A stretch of DNA of 64,000 bases from an uncultured Dokdonia sp. GTDB lineage: Bacteria > Bacteroidota > Bacteroidia > Flavobacteriales > Flavobacteriaceae. Positions 43,163-49,018 of the stretch are shown piece after piece. The translations under genes and the position numbers were made by a program. The stretch spans positions 62,001-126,000 of the forward strand of contig NZ_CANMDS010000006.1 in assembly GCF_947496725.1 (NCBI RefSeq). Direction: 5' to 3'. Within the stretch, counting starts at the first letter, position 1. Every line of letters starts with the position of its first letter. The notes under the pieces were generated by a model that was not told where the DNA came from, did no database searches, and was given only the letters and a program-made list of their open reading frames with translations.

Positions 43163-43214
43163 CTTACTCGGGTGAAACATCCTCCCTAGCCCTCTTTCGA
43201 AGGAGGGGACTTTA
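43163..43214. repeat. Dispersed 52-bp repeat, copy 1
   Basis: Begins CTTACTCGGGTGAAACAT and ends GGGGACTTTA, with an internal CCTCTTTCGAAGGAGG hairpin. Copy 2 at 43371-43423 differs by one inserted G and one T-to-C change. Confidence 0.85.
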
Positions 43215-43224
43215 ATAACGTCAG

Positions 43225-43350
43225 GTTCAGTTTCAAGTTCAAGTTCAGTTTCAAGTTCAAGTTCAGGTTCAGGTTCGATTTCAAATTCAAGTTCAAGTTC
43301 AGGTTCGATTTCAAGTTCAAGTTCAAGTTCAAGTTCAAGTTCAGTTTCAA
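43225..43350. repeat. Hexamer tandem array (21 units)
   Basis: Twenty-one head-to-tail hexamers of the forms GTTCAA, GTTCAG, TTTCAA, GTTCGA and ATTCAA. The strand is strongly asymmetric and pyrimidine-rich in steps. No spacers, so it is not a CRISPR. One frame reads as Ser-rich sequence but has no start. Confidence 0.9.
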
Positions 43351-43370
43351 CTTTTCCTAATTAGTGCGTG

Positions 43371-43423
43371 CTTACTCGGGGTGAAACATCCTCCCTAGCC
43401 CTCCTTCGAAGGAGGGGACTTTA
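43371..43423. repeat. Dispersed 53-bp repeat, copy 2
   Basis: Direct repeat of 43163-43214, on the same strand, on the far side of the hexamer array; the pair flanks the array. Confidence 0.85.
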
Positions 43424-43452
43424 GTGGTGGTTTAGAAACAAATTCGGCTTCT

Positions 43453-43818: not shown

Positions 43819-44352
43819 ATGTATCAAACTATGGCAGAGATACCTGACAACATTATCCCTGTACAAGAAGCAGATAACTTGTACAAAACTTATGGAGATG
43901 ATCGCGCTCCTATAATAGAAAAAGACGTAAACGACCAATATAGAGGTCAAGACCCTCCTTATGAAGCGACAAGATTTGTCACTGCAAATTATGACAAGCT
44001 AAAAGCATATATCGCTTTTATAGATCAAGAATCAAAAGAAGCAGGAGTAACTCCAAAAGGGCTACGTATCTATTTTGGGGCAACAGAACCTACTAAAGGT
44101 AAACCTGGTAGAGAGACGGTGTTCTTTAACCCAGTAGCTGCCTTTAAGGGTGTAGATGGCGATATTTCTTATGCTATTCACACAGACTTAGATGGTAACA
44201 AACAAGCAATCACCGTAGGTGATGTGATAGATGGAAAAATACCTAAGCCTTCTGACACAGAATTAGTTAATGGAGGTGTGCAAAGTCTCGCTGGAAACAC
44301 GGTAACGTTCCCACCACCACCGCATTCTAACGATCCTAATGATTACCACTAG
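43819..44352 (+). CDS. Uncharacterised protein A1, paralog of lipoprotein A2
   Basis: 177 residues of an unrecognised family. It aligns along its length with the lipoprotein at 45181: VQEADNLYKTYGDDRAPI, LKAYIAFIDQES, GLRIYFG, ETVFFNP and a Pro-rich tail PPPPHSNDPNDY. Unlike A2 it has no signal peptide or lipobox; only about 14 residues precede the conserved part, and an in-frame stop at 43792 rules out a longer start. The upstream repeat island may have replaced its export signal. Paired with membrane protein B1 19 bases downstream. Localisation is uncertain and it could be a decayed copy. Confidence 0.7.
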   Translation: MYQTMAEIPDNIIPVQEADNLYKTYGDDRAPIIEKDVNDQYRGQDPPYEATRFVTANYDKLKAYIAFIDQESKEAGVTPKGLRIYFGATEPTKGKPGRETVFFNPVAAFKGVDGDISYAIHTDLDGNKQAITVGDVIDGKIPKPSDTELVNGGVQSLAGNTVTFPPPPHSNDPNDYH

Positions 44353-44371
44353 TAAATACCAACCATAATAA

Positions 44372-45016
44372 ATGCATCCACTTACGATTATAGCCTATTC
44401 TTCTGAAGTTATAGCCGCTATTTTGGCTAGTATTTATTTTTACAAGTATAATCACACTAACCTAAAATACTTTTTAGGTTATTTATGGTACAACGCTGCT
44501 AATGAATTAGGAGGGTTGTACCTTCTTAACCACGGCTTGAAATTTGAACTTACCAACATATTTATTGTGGTCGCGGTAACATACTATTTAAGCATTATAA
44601 GAAAAGAAGTAACTAGCCGCAACCTTAAACTAACTGCTAGTATTTTAATAATTGCATTCTTACTTATTGTAGTTTCTGACTTAAGCTTAAATGGTTTATC
44701 TGAAGCGTGGAAAATGTCTAACACCCTAGGCTCTACAATCGCTATTATTGGCTTTCTGTTATATTTAATACACACGTTAAAATCAAGCAACCTAACAAAT
44801 TGGTCACGTAATATGATTAATTACTTTGTTGCGGGATTTGCATTATTTTTTATTGCTGGCCCTGTAATTAATTTAGCTCGTATCTTATATCAATATAATT
44901 ATGCACTTAACGTTAGTCTATCATACATTATGGCAATTGTAGCAATTTTAATGTACACCATCTTCTCTTTTGGCTTTATCTATTCTAAAAAAGCATCTGA
45001 GTTAGAAGAGGACTAG
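44372..45016 (+). CDS. Multi-pass (about seven-TM) membrane protein B1
   Basis: 214 residues with about seven predicted spans and hardly any loops. Family landmarks shared with B2 and B3 are SEVIAAILAS followed by FYKYNHT at the end of span 1, LWY in span 2, LKSS between spans 5 and 6, and FGFIYSK closing span 7. A conserved Glu lies in span 1. There is no lysine within span 7, so it is not a retinal protein. I do not recognise the family. It follows A1 by 19 bases. Proposed role: sensor or partner of the histidine kinase encoded downstream (inference). Confidence 0.75.
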   Translation: MHPLTIIAYSSEVIAAILASIYFYKYNHTNLKYFLGYLWYNAANELGGLYLLNHGLKFELTNIFIVVAVTYYLSIIRKEVTSRNLKLTASILIIAFLLIVVSDLSLNGLSEAWKMSNTLGSTIAIIGFLLYLIHTLKSSNLTNWSRNMINYFVAGFALFFIAGPVINLARILYQYNYALNVSLSYIMAIVAILMYTIFSFGFIYSKKASELEED

Positions 45017-45081
45017 ATTAGTTCTTTTTTTATGCTAGTGTAAGCTGCAATGACCCCTGCTCTAGCTACTATCCCCCATAA

Positions 45082-45097
45082 AGGGACATTTACCCCT
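45082..45097. promoter_or_regulatory. Candidate operator, AGGG-N8-CCCT type (copy 1)
   Basis: AGGGACATTTACCCCT, 84 bases before the A2 start. Its reverse complement aligns with the copies at 47465 and 49225 around AAATG(C/T)CC. Confidence 0.4.
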
Positions 45098-45180
45098 ACC
45101 CCACTACTTATAAGGGTAGTATACTTGTATTTCCCTAGCTTGGTTTAAGTTTTAACACTAACCTAAAACCAATTGTACAA

Positions 45181-45807
45181 ATGAAAACAATTAAATTACT
45201 GGCCTTACTTTTTGTAAGTGCCATCATCCTTGAGGGCTGTAATGAGAAGCCTGCACATCCTGGACAACCCGCTGAAGGTGGCTCAATACCACCACCTAAG
45301 ACTATTATAGACGTTCAGGAAGCTGAGGATATGTACCATCGTTATGGCAAAGACATAGCTCCCATTTTAGAAAAAAACAAGTCAAATTTTAAAGCGACCA
45401 GATCGCTTTCTATAGATTATAAAACGCTTAAAGATTATATCGCCTTTATCGAGCAAGAAGCAGCGGAAGCAAATAAAACCGAAATCACAGGACTGCGCAT
45501 TTATTTTGCCAAATATGAGGACTCAAAAAATGATGGAAGAGCCACTGTTTTTCTCAATCCTATAATGGAGTACGGCGGCCCTGGCGTAAATGATGATGTG
45601 GCCTTTGCTATTGATAAATCTACTAATCCATCAAAGGCTGTCTTTGTAAAGGAAGTAATAACTGTACCTAGACCAGAAAATGAAACAACTAACAGAGCAG
45701 ACTTGATTATGACCGTACAAGGTGGTAAACCAATCCAGAGTCTAGCGATTAATGGTATGCCTTGGAGACCGCCACCACCACCGCCTAACGACCCAGATTA
45801 CCAATAA
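45181..45807 (+). CDS. Uncharacterised lipoprotein A2
   Basis: 208 residues with a clear lipoprotein signal (lipobox ILEGC, Cys 20), a Pro-rich spacer and a domain homologous to A1: VQEAEDMYHRYGKDIAPI, LKDYIAFIEQEA, GLRIYFAKYED, RATVFLNP and the tail PPPPPPNDPDYQ. It would sit in the periplasm or on the surface. The family is unknown to me; calcium, peptide or redox roles cannot be inferred. B2 follows 17 bases later, repeating the A-B order of the preceding pair. Confidence 0.78.
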   Translation: MKTIKLLALLFVSAIILEGCNEKPAHPGQPAEGGSIPPPKTIIDVQEAEDMYHRYGKDIAPILEKNKSNFKATRSLSIDYKTLKDYIAFIEQEAAEANKTEITGLRIYFAKYEDSKNDGRATVFLNPIMEYGGPGVNDDVAFAIDKSTNPSKAVFVKEVITVPRPENETTNRADLIMTVQGGKPIQSLAINGMPWRPPPPPPNDPDYQ

Positions 45808-45824
45808 AATTAATAATAAAACCG

Positions 45825-46505
45825 TTGCCCAGTTTGGACACACTCTATAACATAGGATTCATTTCAGAATTTATGGCTGCAATCTCGGCAACGGTTTTCT
45901 TCTATAAATATAAACATACAAAGCTCGTATGGCTTTTACCGTTGCTATGGTATATACCCATTAATGAGATTTTATGTCAAAAAGTTTTTGGACCTTCTAC
46001 AACTGGTTATATACTTTATAATATATATAGGATTATTGTACCGTTATCTCTATTACTTATTATTAGTTCTCAATTAAAAGGCAAAAATTCAAAGTCTTTT
46101 ACCCTAGTAGTAATTTTACTCTTTACTGTAGGTGTAGTTTTAGATTTTGCATTTACATCATTTACTACTGAGTTTCTAAATCACTCGCTTACTTTTTCTT
46201 CCATACTCATTGTTGTAATGCTACTTCGTTATTTTGTAGAAGAGCTTAAAAGCGATAATGTTCTTATGCTTAAAAAAAACCTTTTCTTATGGGTTTCATT
46301 TGGCTTCTTGACCTTCCACATAGCGTATCCTGTAATCGTACTAGCAGAGCAGTACCTTATAAATGGTAATAACACACTTAGAAAAAGCCTATTTCAGATA
46401 CATCTGGTCATCATTATTATTTCTTATCTGTTTATTGCTTTTGCATTCTATTGGTCAAATAAGATACCTCATTCCAATACTCACTTATTAAAAAAAGATG
46501 ATTAA
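45825..46505 (+). CDS. Multi-pass membrane protein B2
   Basis: 226 residues, about seven spans, paralogous to B1 and B3: SEFMAAISATVFFYKYKHT, LLWY, EELKSDN and the span-7 end FAFYWSN. The start must be TTG (45825 or 45834), since the first ATG falls inside span 1. Its final codons overlap by eight bases the start of a 43-residue single-span ORF, implying translational coupling. Preceded by lipoprotein A2. Confidence 0.75.
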   Translation: MPSLDTLYNIGFISEFMAAISATVFFYKYKHTKLVWLLPLLWYIPINEILCQKVFGPSTTGYILYNIYRIIVPLSLLLIISSQLKGKNSKSFTLVVILLFTVGVVLDFAFTSFTTEFLNHSLTFSSILIVVMLLRYFVEELKSDNVLMLKKNLFLWVSFGFLTFHIAYPVIVLAEQYLINGNNTLRKSLFQIHLVIIIISYLFIAFAFYWSNKIPHSNTHLLKKDD

Positions 46506-46629
46506 GGAAGAAGTTCTTGTCATATGGCTGGTCTGCGTGACCATTTTGTTTCTACTATTTTTAGTAGCGACTTTGTTTTGTGCAATTGCACTCTATTATC
46601 GTTTTGATAATAAGTCGCGTGTACGGTAA
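46498..46629 (+). CDS. 43-residue single-TM ORF coupled to B2
   Basis: ATG at 46498 overlaps the B2 stop (ATGATTAA). The peptide starts MIKEEVLVIWLV, has one membrane span (about residues 6-33) and a basic tail YYRFDNKSRVR. Its layout resembles the N-terminal anchor of the histidine kinase at 47544 (short head, one long span, basic exit). It could be a real small subunit or the stump of a kinase gene lost from the A2-B2 module. Confidence 0.5.
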   Translation: MIKEEVLVIWLVCVTILFLLFLVATLFCAIALYYRFDNKSRVR

Positions 46630-46671
46630 ATGGAGTTTCTCTCGTTTTTTTAAAATTTGGTTTTGAGTACG

Positions 46672-46683
46672 CTTTCGCGAAAG
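46672..46683. repeat. Iterated palindrome, copy 16 (between mini-TM ORF and B3)
   Basis: Full 20-bp form, 43 bases after the mini-TM stop. Confidence 0.9.
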
Positions 46684-46771
46684 CGTAACACAACCCTCCA
46701 GCGTAAAAAATCTTACAAAATGAAAATTTCTAATTTACTACCTTTCAATCTCATCAAATAAACCTCACTCC

Positions 46772-47419
46772 TTGAGCACCCTAATGTACATATCTGAAAT
46801 TATAGCGGCACTTGTGGCAACTATTTTCTTCTACAAGTACAAACACCTACCTATAAAAACGATACTGTACATACTCTGGATAGCCGTTATTACCGAAGGT
46901 ATGGCTAGGGTATACTCACATTACTACCACAATAATCACTGGGTATATAATCTGTATGCGTTCTTGTTTTACACCCTATTTTATAAAATGATTTATGATC
47001 ATATAAAAAATAAAACCAGAAAACGACTCGTACTAGTTATTGCTACTATAATGATGACCGCAGTAATTATAAGAGGTTTTACCGTGCCTGTAATTACATT
47101 TTATATGAGTAAAACGTATAGTATCGCAATGGTGGTAATGGTGTTTTTACTTATGATTTATGCCGTAGAGCGCCTTAAGAGTGATGACAGTTTGCAGGTA
47201 AAAAATGAGCTAGCGCTTTTTGTCTTTACAGCTTATCTAGTTTTTGGTATTTCCTTTATTCCTCTGGCTCCTTTTTTGACAGGGCAGATGGACTTTAACT
47301 ACTCCAGAGCTATGCTAGATATCTTGAAGGGCGTACAGACTGCGGCCTTACTGTTTGCAAATGCCTTACTTGTTTTTGGCTTTATATGGACAAAACCAAG
47401 AGCAAGAGAGGTCTTATAA
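46772..47419 (+). CDS. Multi-pass membrane protein B3
   Basis: 215 residues, about seven spans, third paralog: SEIIAALVATIFFYKYKH, ILWI, ERLKSDDS and FGFIWTK. The TTG at 46772 gives a seven-residue head comparable with B1 and B2; the ATG at 46784 would leave three. It has no A partner of its own and lies 124 bases upstream of the kinase gene, with an AGGG-N6-CCCT motif in that gap. Confidence 0.75.
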   Translation: MSTLMYISEIIAALVATIFFYKYKHLPIKTILYILWIAVITEGMARVYSHYYHNNHWVYNLYAFLFYTLFYKMIYDHIKNKTRKRLVLVIATIMMTAVIIRGFTVPVITFYMSKTYSIAMVVMVFLLMIYAVERLKSDDSLQVKNELALFVFTAYLVFGISFIPLAPFLTGQMDFNYSRAMLDILKGVQTAALLFANALLVFGFIWTKPRAREVL

Positions 47420-47464
47420 GCGAGCTTTCTAGATGCAAATTTTAAAGCTCCTACTATAACTAAA

Positions 47465-47478
47465 AGGGCAAATGCCCT
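47465..47478. promoter_or_regulatory. Candidate operator, AGGG-N6-CCCT type (copy 2)
   Basis: AGGGCAAATGCCCT, a near-perfect palindrome 66 bases before the kinase ATG. Confidence 0.45.
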
Positions 47479-47543
47479 ATGGTGAATGCGTACCAAAATA
47501 AGTATCTTGAACTCTTAATTTAATCACACCCCAATAGCAATCT

Positions 47544-48329
47544 ATGTTTCTGATTCAAGATCAAGATAGCGGCACTCTTTTTATAGTGCTTGTTGCCATC
47601 ACCATTTTACTACTACTGCTGGTTGTTGTAGTAGTGCTATTTTCTGTTTTTATGAAGCGCAAAAACAGCTTACTGTTAGAACAAGAAGAGGCAAAACAAC
47701 GTTTTGAAAGAGAAATTACAGAAACGCAGATAGAGATACGTGAGGAAACGCTACGTAACATAAGCTGGGAGCTACACGATAATATAGGCCAGCTACTTAC
47801 ACTTGCAAAAATACAAACACAAAACTCTGGTGGTAGCCAGCAAGATCTAGACGAGGCAGTAGCAACCATAGGTAAGGGTCTTACTGAGATACGAGCACTG
47901 TCAAAACTCATAAACCCAGAGGCGCTTAAAAATATGTCTTTACCAGAGGCACTTAACCTAGAGCTAGAACGCTTTGAGAGAATGGCTTATCTAAAACCAT
48001 CGCTCAAAATATCTGGCAGCCCAATAGAAATAGATAAAAAGATTGAGACCATTATCTTTAGAATATTGCAAGAGTTTTTTACAAACACCATAAAGCACTC
48101 TAAAGCTACGCACCTAGATGTACACCTCAACTATAGAGGTGACACTGTACTCATTACCGTAAAAGATAACGGAGTAGGTTTTGATTATGAAAAAGCCAGA
48201 GCAAAAAATGGTATAGGCCTTACTAATATAGAAACACGCGCAAAGCTTATAGGCGCTACCATAAAATATATGTCACAAGTTAATGAGGGCACAACGCTAT
48301 CACTTAACTATAAAACACAATCATTATGA
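47544..48329 (+). CDS. Sensor-less histidine kinase (HisKA_3 type)
   Basis: 261 residues: one membrane span (about 11-37), a short coiled-coil-like linker (about 42-72), the phosphoacceptor segment WELHDNIGQLL (H78) of the HisKA_3/NarX-LiaS class, and a HATPase_c domain with N box FTNTIKHSKA, DNGVGFD and GIGLTNIETRA. There is no extracellular or cytosolic sensing domain, so input must come from a partner, and the adjacent B proteins are obvious candidates. Its stop overlaps the response-regulator start (ATGA). Confidence 0.93.
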   Translation: MFLIQDQDSGTLFIVLVAITILLLLLVVVVVLFSVFMKRKNSLLLEQEEAKQRFEREITETQIEIREETLRNISWELHDNIGQLLTLAKIQTQNSGGSQQDLDEAVATIGKGLTEIRALSKLINPEALKNMSLPEALNLELERFERMAYLKPSLKISGSPIEIDKKIETIIFRILQEFFTNTIKHSKATHLDVHLNYRGDTVLITVKDNGVGFDYEKARAKNGIGLTNIETRAKLIGATIKYMSQVNEGTTLSLNYKTQSL

Positions 48330-48955
48330 AAACAATAGTTATTGTAGATGATCATACATTACTTAGCCAGGCCATAAGCGGCTTAGTAAATTCATTTGAA
48401 AATTTTAAAGTGCTTTATACCTGTAAAAATGGGCAAGAGCTACTAGACAACCTTAAGTTTGAAAACAAGCGTCCAGACATCGTTCTTATGGATGTAAATA
48501 TGCCTATTATGGACGGTATTGAGGCTACTACAAATCTCAAAGAGCTCTATCCAGACATACTAGTGCTTGCGCTCTCTGTAGAGGAGGATGATCATACTAT
48601 TTTAAAAATGATACGCGCAGGTGCAAAAGGATACCTCCTTAAAGACACCGAAAAAAAGGTGCTAGAAAACGCCCTTAATGAGCTAATTATAAATGGATAT
48701 TACCATACTAATACCGTGAGCCAGCTTCTTGTAAAAAGCTTAGATGGAGATAACAGAGATGAACTTAGGGATAGAGAAATAGAGTTTATAAAACACGCCT
48801 GCACAGAGATGACTTATAATGAGATTGCTTCTGTAATGTTTCTCAGTCCCAAAACGGTACAAGGGTATAGAGATAGTGTGTTCTCAAAATTAAATTTAAA
48901 AAACAGAACAGGTCTTGTTATTTATGCCCTAAAAAGCGGATTGTTTAAACCATAA
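48326..48955 (+). CDS. NarL/LuxR-family response regulator
   Basis: 209 residues: receiver domain (about 1-120) with acidic pocket VDDH, phosphorylation site D56 in VLMDVNMPIMDG and K106-type lysine in GYLLKDTE, then a LuxR-type helix-turn-helix (about 148-205, REIEFIKHACTEMTYNEIASVMFLSPKTVQGYRDSVFSKL). Cognate to the kinase, with which it is translationally coupled. NarL-type regulators bind short inverted repeats; the AGGG-N-CCCT motifs in this locus are candidates. Confidence 0.95.
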   Translation: MKTIVIVDDHTLLSQAISGLVNSFENFKVLYTCKNGQELLDNLKFENKRPDIVLMDVNMPIMDGIEATTNLKELYPDILVLALSVEEDDHTILKMIRAGAKGYLLKDTEKKVLENALNELIINGYYHTNTVSQLLVKSLDGDNRDELRDREIEFIKHACTEMTYNEIASVMFLSPKTVQGYRDSVFSKLNLKNRTGLVIYALKSGLFKP

Positions 48956-48983
48956 ACTTAAGCTTCACCACAGCTTTCAAACC

Positions 48984-49018
48984 TCCATAAATCAAAGATT
49001 TGTGGAGGCTTTTTTTTT
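48984..49018 (+). terminator. Terminator of the kinase-regulator operon
   Basis: CCTCCATAAATC pairs with GATTTGTGGAGG (one wobble) around AAA, then nine T. Confidence 0.85.

Follow-up and report, generated by a model that had tools for sequence, protein, structure and literature searches.

Histidine kinases that cross the membrane once and carry no sensor domain pose the question of where their input comes from. A kinase of this kind (HK) is encoded next to a NarL-type response regulator (RR) in a 64,000-nucleotide stretch from an uncultured Dokdonia sp. (contig NZ_CANMDS010000006.1, positions 62,001 to 126,000; hereafter the window), downstream of genes for two protein families, A and B. An earlier note on this DNA had proposed that the B proteins, with the A proteins as periplasmic parts, are the sensors of the kinase. 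Judged from gene neighbourhoods, A-B-HK-RR is a conserved, widespread module in Flavobacteria and relatives, and we consider it probable that the module works as a two-component system in which receptor and kinase have been split into separate proteins.

Three B proteins and two A proteins precede a single kinase-regulator pair

The locus holds the following features, in window coordinates (aa, amino acids; ORF, open reading frame):
43819-44352, + strand: A1, 177 aa, A-family protein without a signal peptide
44372-45016, + strand: B1, 214 aa, seven-helix B-family protein
45181-45807, + strand: A2, 208 aa, A-family lipoprotein (lipobox by eye), small alpha/beta domain
45825-46505, + strand: B2, 226 aa, seven-helix B-family protein, TTG start as listed
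46498-46629, + strand: microprotein ORF, 43 aa, one span, overlapping the end of B2
46772-47419, + strand: B3, 215 aa, seven-helix B-family protein adjoining the kinase, TTG start as listed
47544-48329, + strand: HK, one-span kinase (HisKA_3, HATPase_c) lacking a sensor domain
48326-48955, + strand: RR, NarL-type response regulator
48982-49008, + strand: terminator-like stem and T run directly after RR, a consensus match only

The seven genes A1, B1, A2, B2, B3, HK and RR lie on one strand where the earlier note had placed them, and its description of their products was confirmed. HK matches HisKA_3 (26.5 bits, cut-off 24) and HATPase_c (50.8 bits, cut-off 26.4), RR matches Response_reg (the receiver) and GerE above cut-off, and the landmarks SE-x2-AA, FYKYxH, LKS(D/S) and F(G/A)F(I/Y)(Y/W) are present in B1, B2 and B3. 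The paralogies were borne out as well, with identities of 33% between B1 and B2, 20% between B1 and B3, and 48% between A1 and A2; the lipobox of A2 was seen by eye. A whole-genome search with the B3 sequence, run up to an expectation value (E) of 1, returned only the other two B proteins of the window (E 1e-17 and 9e-8), so their kinship is not due to chance. HK is the sole HisKA_3 match in the genome at E ≤ 0.001, and a search of the region for RNA families found none. The A-B part appears to have been duplicated in the window (A1-B1, A2-B2, B3) ahead of the single HK-RR pair.

A and B are families without a name in the libraries searched

The window A and B proteins reach the cut-off of no Pfam or NCBIfam family. 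In a wider scan of 120 B and 104 A proteins, read from the best 25 of the 62 (B) or 63 (A) Pfam families matched and extended to NCBIfam, the matches were scattered and weak. Among the B proteins the commonest family, DUF6768, was found in 10 and 7TMR-DISM_7TM in 5, each with a best E of 0.0014; the commonest weak family of the A proteins, TcaA_2nd, was found in 5 (best E 0.0008). 5TMR-LYT was absent among the best 25 of the 62 families matched (E up to 1) by the 120 B proteins, and it is not listed for window B1, B2 or B3. Against 7TMR-DISM_7TM (PF07695), B3 scored 7.4 bits, below the cut-off of 29, and the B profile gave a probability of only 19% (P 0.0012).

Comparisons with structures gave a similar picture. 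Profile searches of solved structures returned weak matches only, with a best E of 0.55 for A and 0.042 for B. The model of B2 has seven helices, with a mean predicted local distance difference test score (pLDDT) of 94.2 and a predicted template modelling score (pTM) of 0.89; its best structural matches were G-protein-coupled receptors (GPCRs), Myomaker and microbial rhodopsins, with a best E of 0.21, a best template modelling (TM) score of 0.56 among the best 50 matches, and none at E ≤ 0.001. A2 was modelled as a small helix/sheet domain (pLDDT 86, pTM 0.74) with no fold match at E ≤ 0.001, the best having E 0.16 and a TM-score of at most 0.30. No description of the A-B-HK-RR cassette was found in the open-access literature, judged by titles and the starts of abstracts.

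The A-B pair accompanies short kinases in the family and beyond

B was found in all 18 genomes of the genus, in at least 172 of the 249 family genomes examined (at least 141 of 202 genera sampled) and in at least 63 of 296 genomes of the phylum (at least 40 of 140 genera sampled); the family and phylum figures are lower bounds, with at most 12 and 10 candidates scored per genome, respectively.

Gene order was compared in 100 loci from the other genera of the family, most of them chosen for their high scores, and in 20 score-ranked loci outside the family, all 120 of which contain B. Within the family, 73 loci have a HisKA_3 kinase and 2 a LytS-type kinase no more than two genes downstream of B; 24 loci lie beside rho and have no kinase, and one (L154) is cut off by a contig edge. 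Immediately ahead of B, an A gene was identified in 96 of these loci, the exceptions being L114 (contig end), L117 (where A comes after B), L120 and L150. Outside the family, a HisKA_3 kinase follows B in 19 of the 20 loci (exception, L223); the kinase ORFs of L225 and L219 are long as listed (531 and 340 aa) and overlap B. Twenty further loci comprised 15 with a HisKA_3 kinase, three with a LytS-type kinase (L246, L247, L264), L248 beside rho, and L249, a weak B match that lacks both A and a kinase; 18 of the 20 have a recognised A ahead of B. Variants of the arrangement were also seen: L117 has the order B-A-HK-RR, and L077, L015 and L017 carry two or three A genes in tandem, the extra A being about 310-320 aa long.

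For an unranked sample, HisKA_3, B and A were searched separately in 18 genomes, namely this one and G018-G034, taken by their order in an even draw. A and B co-occur in the same 13 of these genomes, and all 18 A matches sit directly before B. The 66 HisKA_3 matches divided sharply by length: ten of the 12 in open frames shorter than 300 aa lie directly after B, versus none of the 54 in longer frames (Fisher p = 3e-10), so that most of the short kinases examined gain a partner family. Among the 17 B clusters of this sample (the weak match L249 left out), ten have a PF07730-positive kinase and one more a HisKA_3-type kinase by our own profile only (G034:C6, L146), which makes 11 of 17; three have a LytS-type kinase, and three lie beside rho (L112, L164, L248). 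In the family, outside it and in the unranked clusters, B homologues thus occur mostly beside HisKA_3 kinases and not away from them.

The LytS-type partners include one from the same genome. Profile searches found one further A-B pair, on contig C6 at about 127.7-128.8 kb, just beyond the window end, and in this second cassette (L018:4147-6822) A, B, a LytS-type kinase and a LytTR regulator follow one another in that order. The kinase, of 270 aa, belongs to the His_kinase family (PF06580) and has one anchor span by eye. A single genome therefore has A-B before two unrelated kinase/regulator types. A 433-aa putative lipoprotein with no Pfam match at 1e-5 lies before this cassette (L018:6984-8285). 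A-B precedes short LytS-type kinases at L018, L168, L176, L246, L247 and L264. We also searched ten hand-picked genomes, most of them chosen as having a B cluster without a HisKA_3 kinase, and obtained 96 LytS-type matches, of which six are shorter than 300 aa and five of these directly follow B (three of four once G084 and G147, known beforehand, are left out); since the genomes were hand-picked, these counts show that the pairing with A-B recurs, not how frequent it is.

Taken as an association, the core idea of the earlier note is thus well supported. The tie to one-span kinases without a sensor domain stood, its restriction to HisKA_3 partners did not, and the partnership with a kinase applies to most loci and not to one clade that has none adjacent, so A-B may also have a kinase-independent role.

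Cassette kinases look active and are inherited together with A and B

An alignment of 103 cassette kinases from 85 genomes showed the His and the Asp after it, the Asn of the N box and the main residues of the glycine box in all 103, and the Q of the phosphatase motif DxxxQ in 97%. The end of the membrane span resembles F-x-KRKN (R 91%, K 90%, N 73%), and hydropathy detected a single hydrophobic span in the first 120 residues of 73 of 74 cassette kinases. By these signatures the kinase looks active and would have almost nothing outside the cell.

To ask how closely the genes travel together, we compared gene trees and exchanged genes between two cassettes of one genome (24 full cassettes, 12 genomes, 2000 swaps). 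Tree agreement was 0.853 for A-B (swapped mean 0.079, maximum 0.772), 0.762 for B-HK (mean 0.064, maximum 0.726) and 0.827 for HK-RR (mean 0.133, maximum 0.747), and no swap attained the observed agreement in any of the six gene pairs. When the comparison was extended to all 82 full cassettes (500 swaps), the observed agreement was never attained in five pairs and was attained once in A-RR. The trees indicate that the cassette genes are inherited as units.

An inner loop of B tracks the presence of the kinase

Lysine and arginine (K+R) average 3.2, 2.3, 2.4 and 2.9 in loops 1-2, 3-4 and 5-6 and the C-terminus of B, and 0.55-0.57 in loops 2-3, 4-5 and 6-7, a distribution that places the N-terminus outside and the C-terminus inside the cell. 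In kinase-linked B proteins (62 rows of the alignment, two of them LytS-linked) the inner helix halves are more conserved than the outer ones (1.77 vs 1.16 bits, p = 4e-8), while in rho-linked rows the two are nearly equal (2.15 vs 2.04).

In the tree of B, the 25 rho-linked rows group together as a single clade (support 0.989). Their stretches (L129, L140 and 23 others), which have no adjacent kinase, contain rho in 25 of 25 cases, proS in 23 and rpsT in 21. In a tree rooted on the LytS-linked rows this clade is nested within kinase-linked B, and its nearest relatives, L094 (support 0.887) and L087 (0.979), have rho in the stretch and keep both HK and RR; the kinase-less form therefore looks like a loss. 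The clade also carries conserved residues of its own.

Kinase-linked B proteins, including those of L094 and L087, share by eye the pattern YFIE(I/V)LNSxKILxIxxNLLFWIS in loop 5-6, which contains the LKS(D/S) landmark. When kinase-linked and rho-linked rows were compared position by position (B2 numbering), E139 was present in 62% vs 32%, S143 in 64% vs 12% and F155 in 100% vs 48%; D or E occupies position 144 in 59% of the kinase-linked rows and neither is among the four commonest residues in the rho-linked ones, and W210 (58% of kinase-linked rows) is mostly R or K in the latter. Since the pattern is eroded in the clade that has no kinase, we read loop 5-6 as the likely kinase contact of B. 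The kinase-less clade with its decayed pattern thereby supplies a concrete, testable contact surface.

Most A proteins carry an export signal

The N-termini of 163 A proteins were classed by a simple rule, by which 103 are lipoprotein-like. Another 23 show a signal or span in which no lipobox was recognised, and several of these, window A2 included, are lipoproteins that the rule missed. A further 37 were scored as signal-less, at least two of them (L077, L239) by miscall, which speaks against a purely outer-face role of A. No signal peptide is present in A1 or in the corresponding proteins of L226, L229 and L233, all of which have in-frame stops upstream. The proposal that A is a periplasmic part is therefore upheld for most A proteins and fails for A1 and about a fifth of the others. 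Either A acts on different sides in different systems, or those A proteins that lack a signal exert their effect on B or HK from the inside.

A probable split receptor and its alternatives

These observations can be assembled into a mechanism. B, with seven helices, its N-terminus outside and its C-terminus inside, would be the receptor or the scaffold of one, and A, mostly a lipoprotein or an anchored exported protein, would sit on the outer face of B and carry or shape the signal. HK would be reduced to its membrane anchor, a coiled coil and the catalytic core, an anatomy that calls for input sideways from B. Loop 5-6 and the last part of helix 7, on the inner side of B, would shift the balance between kinase and phosphatase activity of HK, upon which RR would switch its genes. 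On this sequence evidence, a sensor role of the module is likely. If B is indeed a receptor, it represents an unrecognised family of bacterial seven-helix receptors that extends to other families of the phylum.

Several observations weigh against this mechanism. A was recognised in 11 of the 20 loci outside the family and went unrecognised in the other nine, three short kinases (two HisKA_3, one LytS-type; G028:C21:180440, G033:C2:678519, G028:C22:3586) have no B, and the rho clade retains A-B with no adjacent kinase. The loop pattern is graded and not absolute, given that E and S occur in 62% and 64% of the kinase-linked rows; the window B proteins lack F at position 155 (L, L and N or Y-side changes nearby), and B1 and the LytS-linked rows deviate at further positions of the pattern. 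The 15 most kinase-specific positions lie on the inner face in 14 cases, compared with 63 of 83 in the background, which is not significant (p = 0.07). Co-inheritance can be explained by operon linkage alone, without physical contact; covariation of B and HK over the 103 cassettes gave no clear contact signal, and no fused B-kinase protein was present among the matches listed.

A first alternative is that A-B is a brake or feedback device like SaePQ of Staphylococcus aureus, which binds the kinase and activates its phosphatase, HK sensing through its own span. HK does keep the D and mostly the Q of DxxxQ, and SaePQRS has the same parts list of lipoprotein, membrane protein, kinase and regulator; SaePQ are reported to assemble with SaeS into a ternary complex and to switch on its phosphatase activity (PMC5083920). 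SaeQ has four predicted spans and SaePQ are dispensable for activation (PMC5083920), whereas HK has one span and hardly any outer part, and B stands beside ten of the 12 short HisKA_3 kinases, as for an obligate partner. We regard a brake as unlikely.

It is also improbable that A-B is an envelope machine in its own right, for instance in lipid or cell-wall handling or in transport, with a kinase that monitors its condition or does no more than control its expression. The 24 of 100 family loci in which A-B lies beside rho without an adjacent kinase would fit such a machine, and so would the invariable pairing of A with B in the 18 genomes, which suits an A-B complex with its own job. The kinase-less form is, however, a single clade that looks like a loss, with nearest relatives that keep the kinase; the loop that changed in it belongs to the inner face, the side on which a kinase would lie; and two unrelated kinase types share the A-B arrangement. 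That the genes merely share a neighbourhood, their operon being conserved by descent with no functional link, accounts for linked genes being inherited together but is highly improbable, given that the arrangement recurs with two unrelated kinase/regulator types in varied gene neighbourhoods and, among the HisKA_3 kinases of the 18-genome set, with short ones only.

The split-receptor reading can be widened, more tentatively and somewhat short of an even chance. B would then be a large family of detachable seven-helix receptors with A as co-receptor, in which one inner loop plugs into minimal kinases of two unrelated classes, duplication of A-B diversifies the input, the microprotein tunes it, and one lineage has severed the kinase.

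The microprotein and DNA motifs around the operon

The 43-aa microprotein ORF recurs in 11 other loci of the genus, each time after a B gene, and the copy in L235 is identical; it was not found in the searched loci outside the genus (L077 onward). The ratio of non-synonymous to synonymous substitution rates (dN/dS) was 0.07-0.11 in five comparisons of moderate divergence and 0.09 in one with a dS of 2.4, while in the four most distant comparisons synonymous change was saturated and the proportion of non-synonymous differences (pN) was 0.18-0.28. Given the low dN/dS, the ORF behaves as a gene in its own right, under purifying selection within the genus. We do not claim it as a remnant of a duplicated kinase anchor, to which its similarity is weak (E 0.03 to 0.3).

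A palindrome-like sequence, AGGGCAAATGCCCT, near HK, A2 and the end of RR was considered as a regulator site and rejected, as the window holds five matches with up to three mismatches and 4.5 are expected. A 13-letter form of the motif, drawn from the window, has three exact copies in the genome, one of them upstream of A2, and none in the reversed control. AGGGGTAAATG(C/T)CCCT-like sites, with three exact pattern matches in the genome, are located as follows:
G000:C1:509987
G000:C5:85865
window 45082-45097, upstream of A2

Such sites are possible candidates for a regulator site, with few copies that are perhaps not due to chance. Another palindrome, ACGCTTTCGCGAAAGCGT, occurs with up to two mismatches at 21 places of the window (e.g. 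43083 and 46669) and not in shuffled sequence, and looks like a dispersed repeat. Upstream of the cassette, an element at 43165-43430 contains CCTCCTTCGAAGGAGGGGACTTTA at 43191 (one mismatch) and at 43400, and TTCAAG-like units run between the two copies.

Comparison with known systems

Separate membrane proteins beside sensor-poor HisKA_3 kinases and NarL-type regulators are known from LiaFSR and VraTSR. The window A and B proteins differ in that they have no Pfam or NCBIfam match to such a family, B having seven helices and being paired with A. Sensory rhodopsin is a seven-helix receptor that passes its signal laterally to a transducer in the membrane, and it resembles the proposed arrangement in that receptor and partner are separate; no structural match of B to a rhodopsin or GPCR reaches significance (E ≥ 0.21). 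7TMR-DISM receptors (PF07695) likewise have seven helices and often stand before signalling domains, and in view of the weak profile matches described above a kinship with B is no more than possible.

SaePQRS and BtsS are the known systems that come closest to the module. SaeS, the kinase of SaePQRS, belongs to another kinase class than HK. The likeness of the two systems lies in architecture only, namely a lipoprotein and a membrane protein encoded beside a kinase and a regulator, and A is not always a lipoprotein. The SaePQ pair complexes with SaeS, which has a HAMP domain, and SaeQ differs from the seven-helix B in its predicted span number (PMC5083920). Since neither A nor B reaches the cut-off of any Pfam family, no family link to SaePQ is shown. 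BtsS, a LytS-type kinase, has seven helices with the N-terminus outside and the kinase inside, and its ligand site lies among the helices, close to the periplasm (PMC10653868). It thus shares with B the seven helices and the outer N-terminus, with the difference that receptor and kinase are fused in BtsS, whereas B is encoded by a separate gene and would serve both HisKA_3 and LytS-type kinases.

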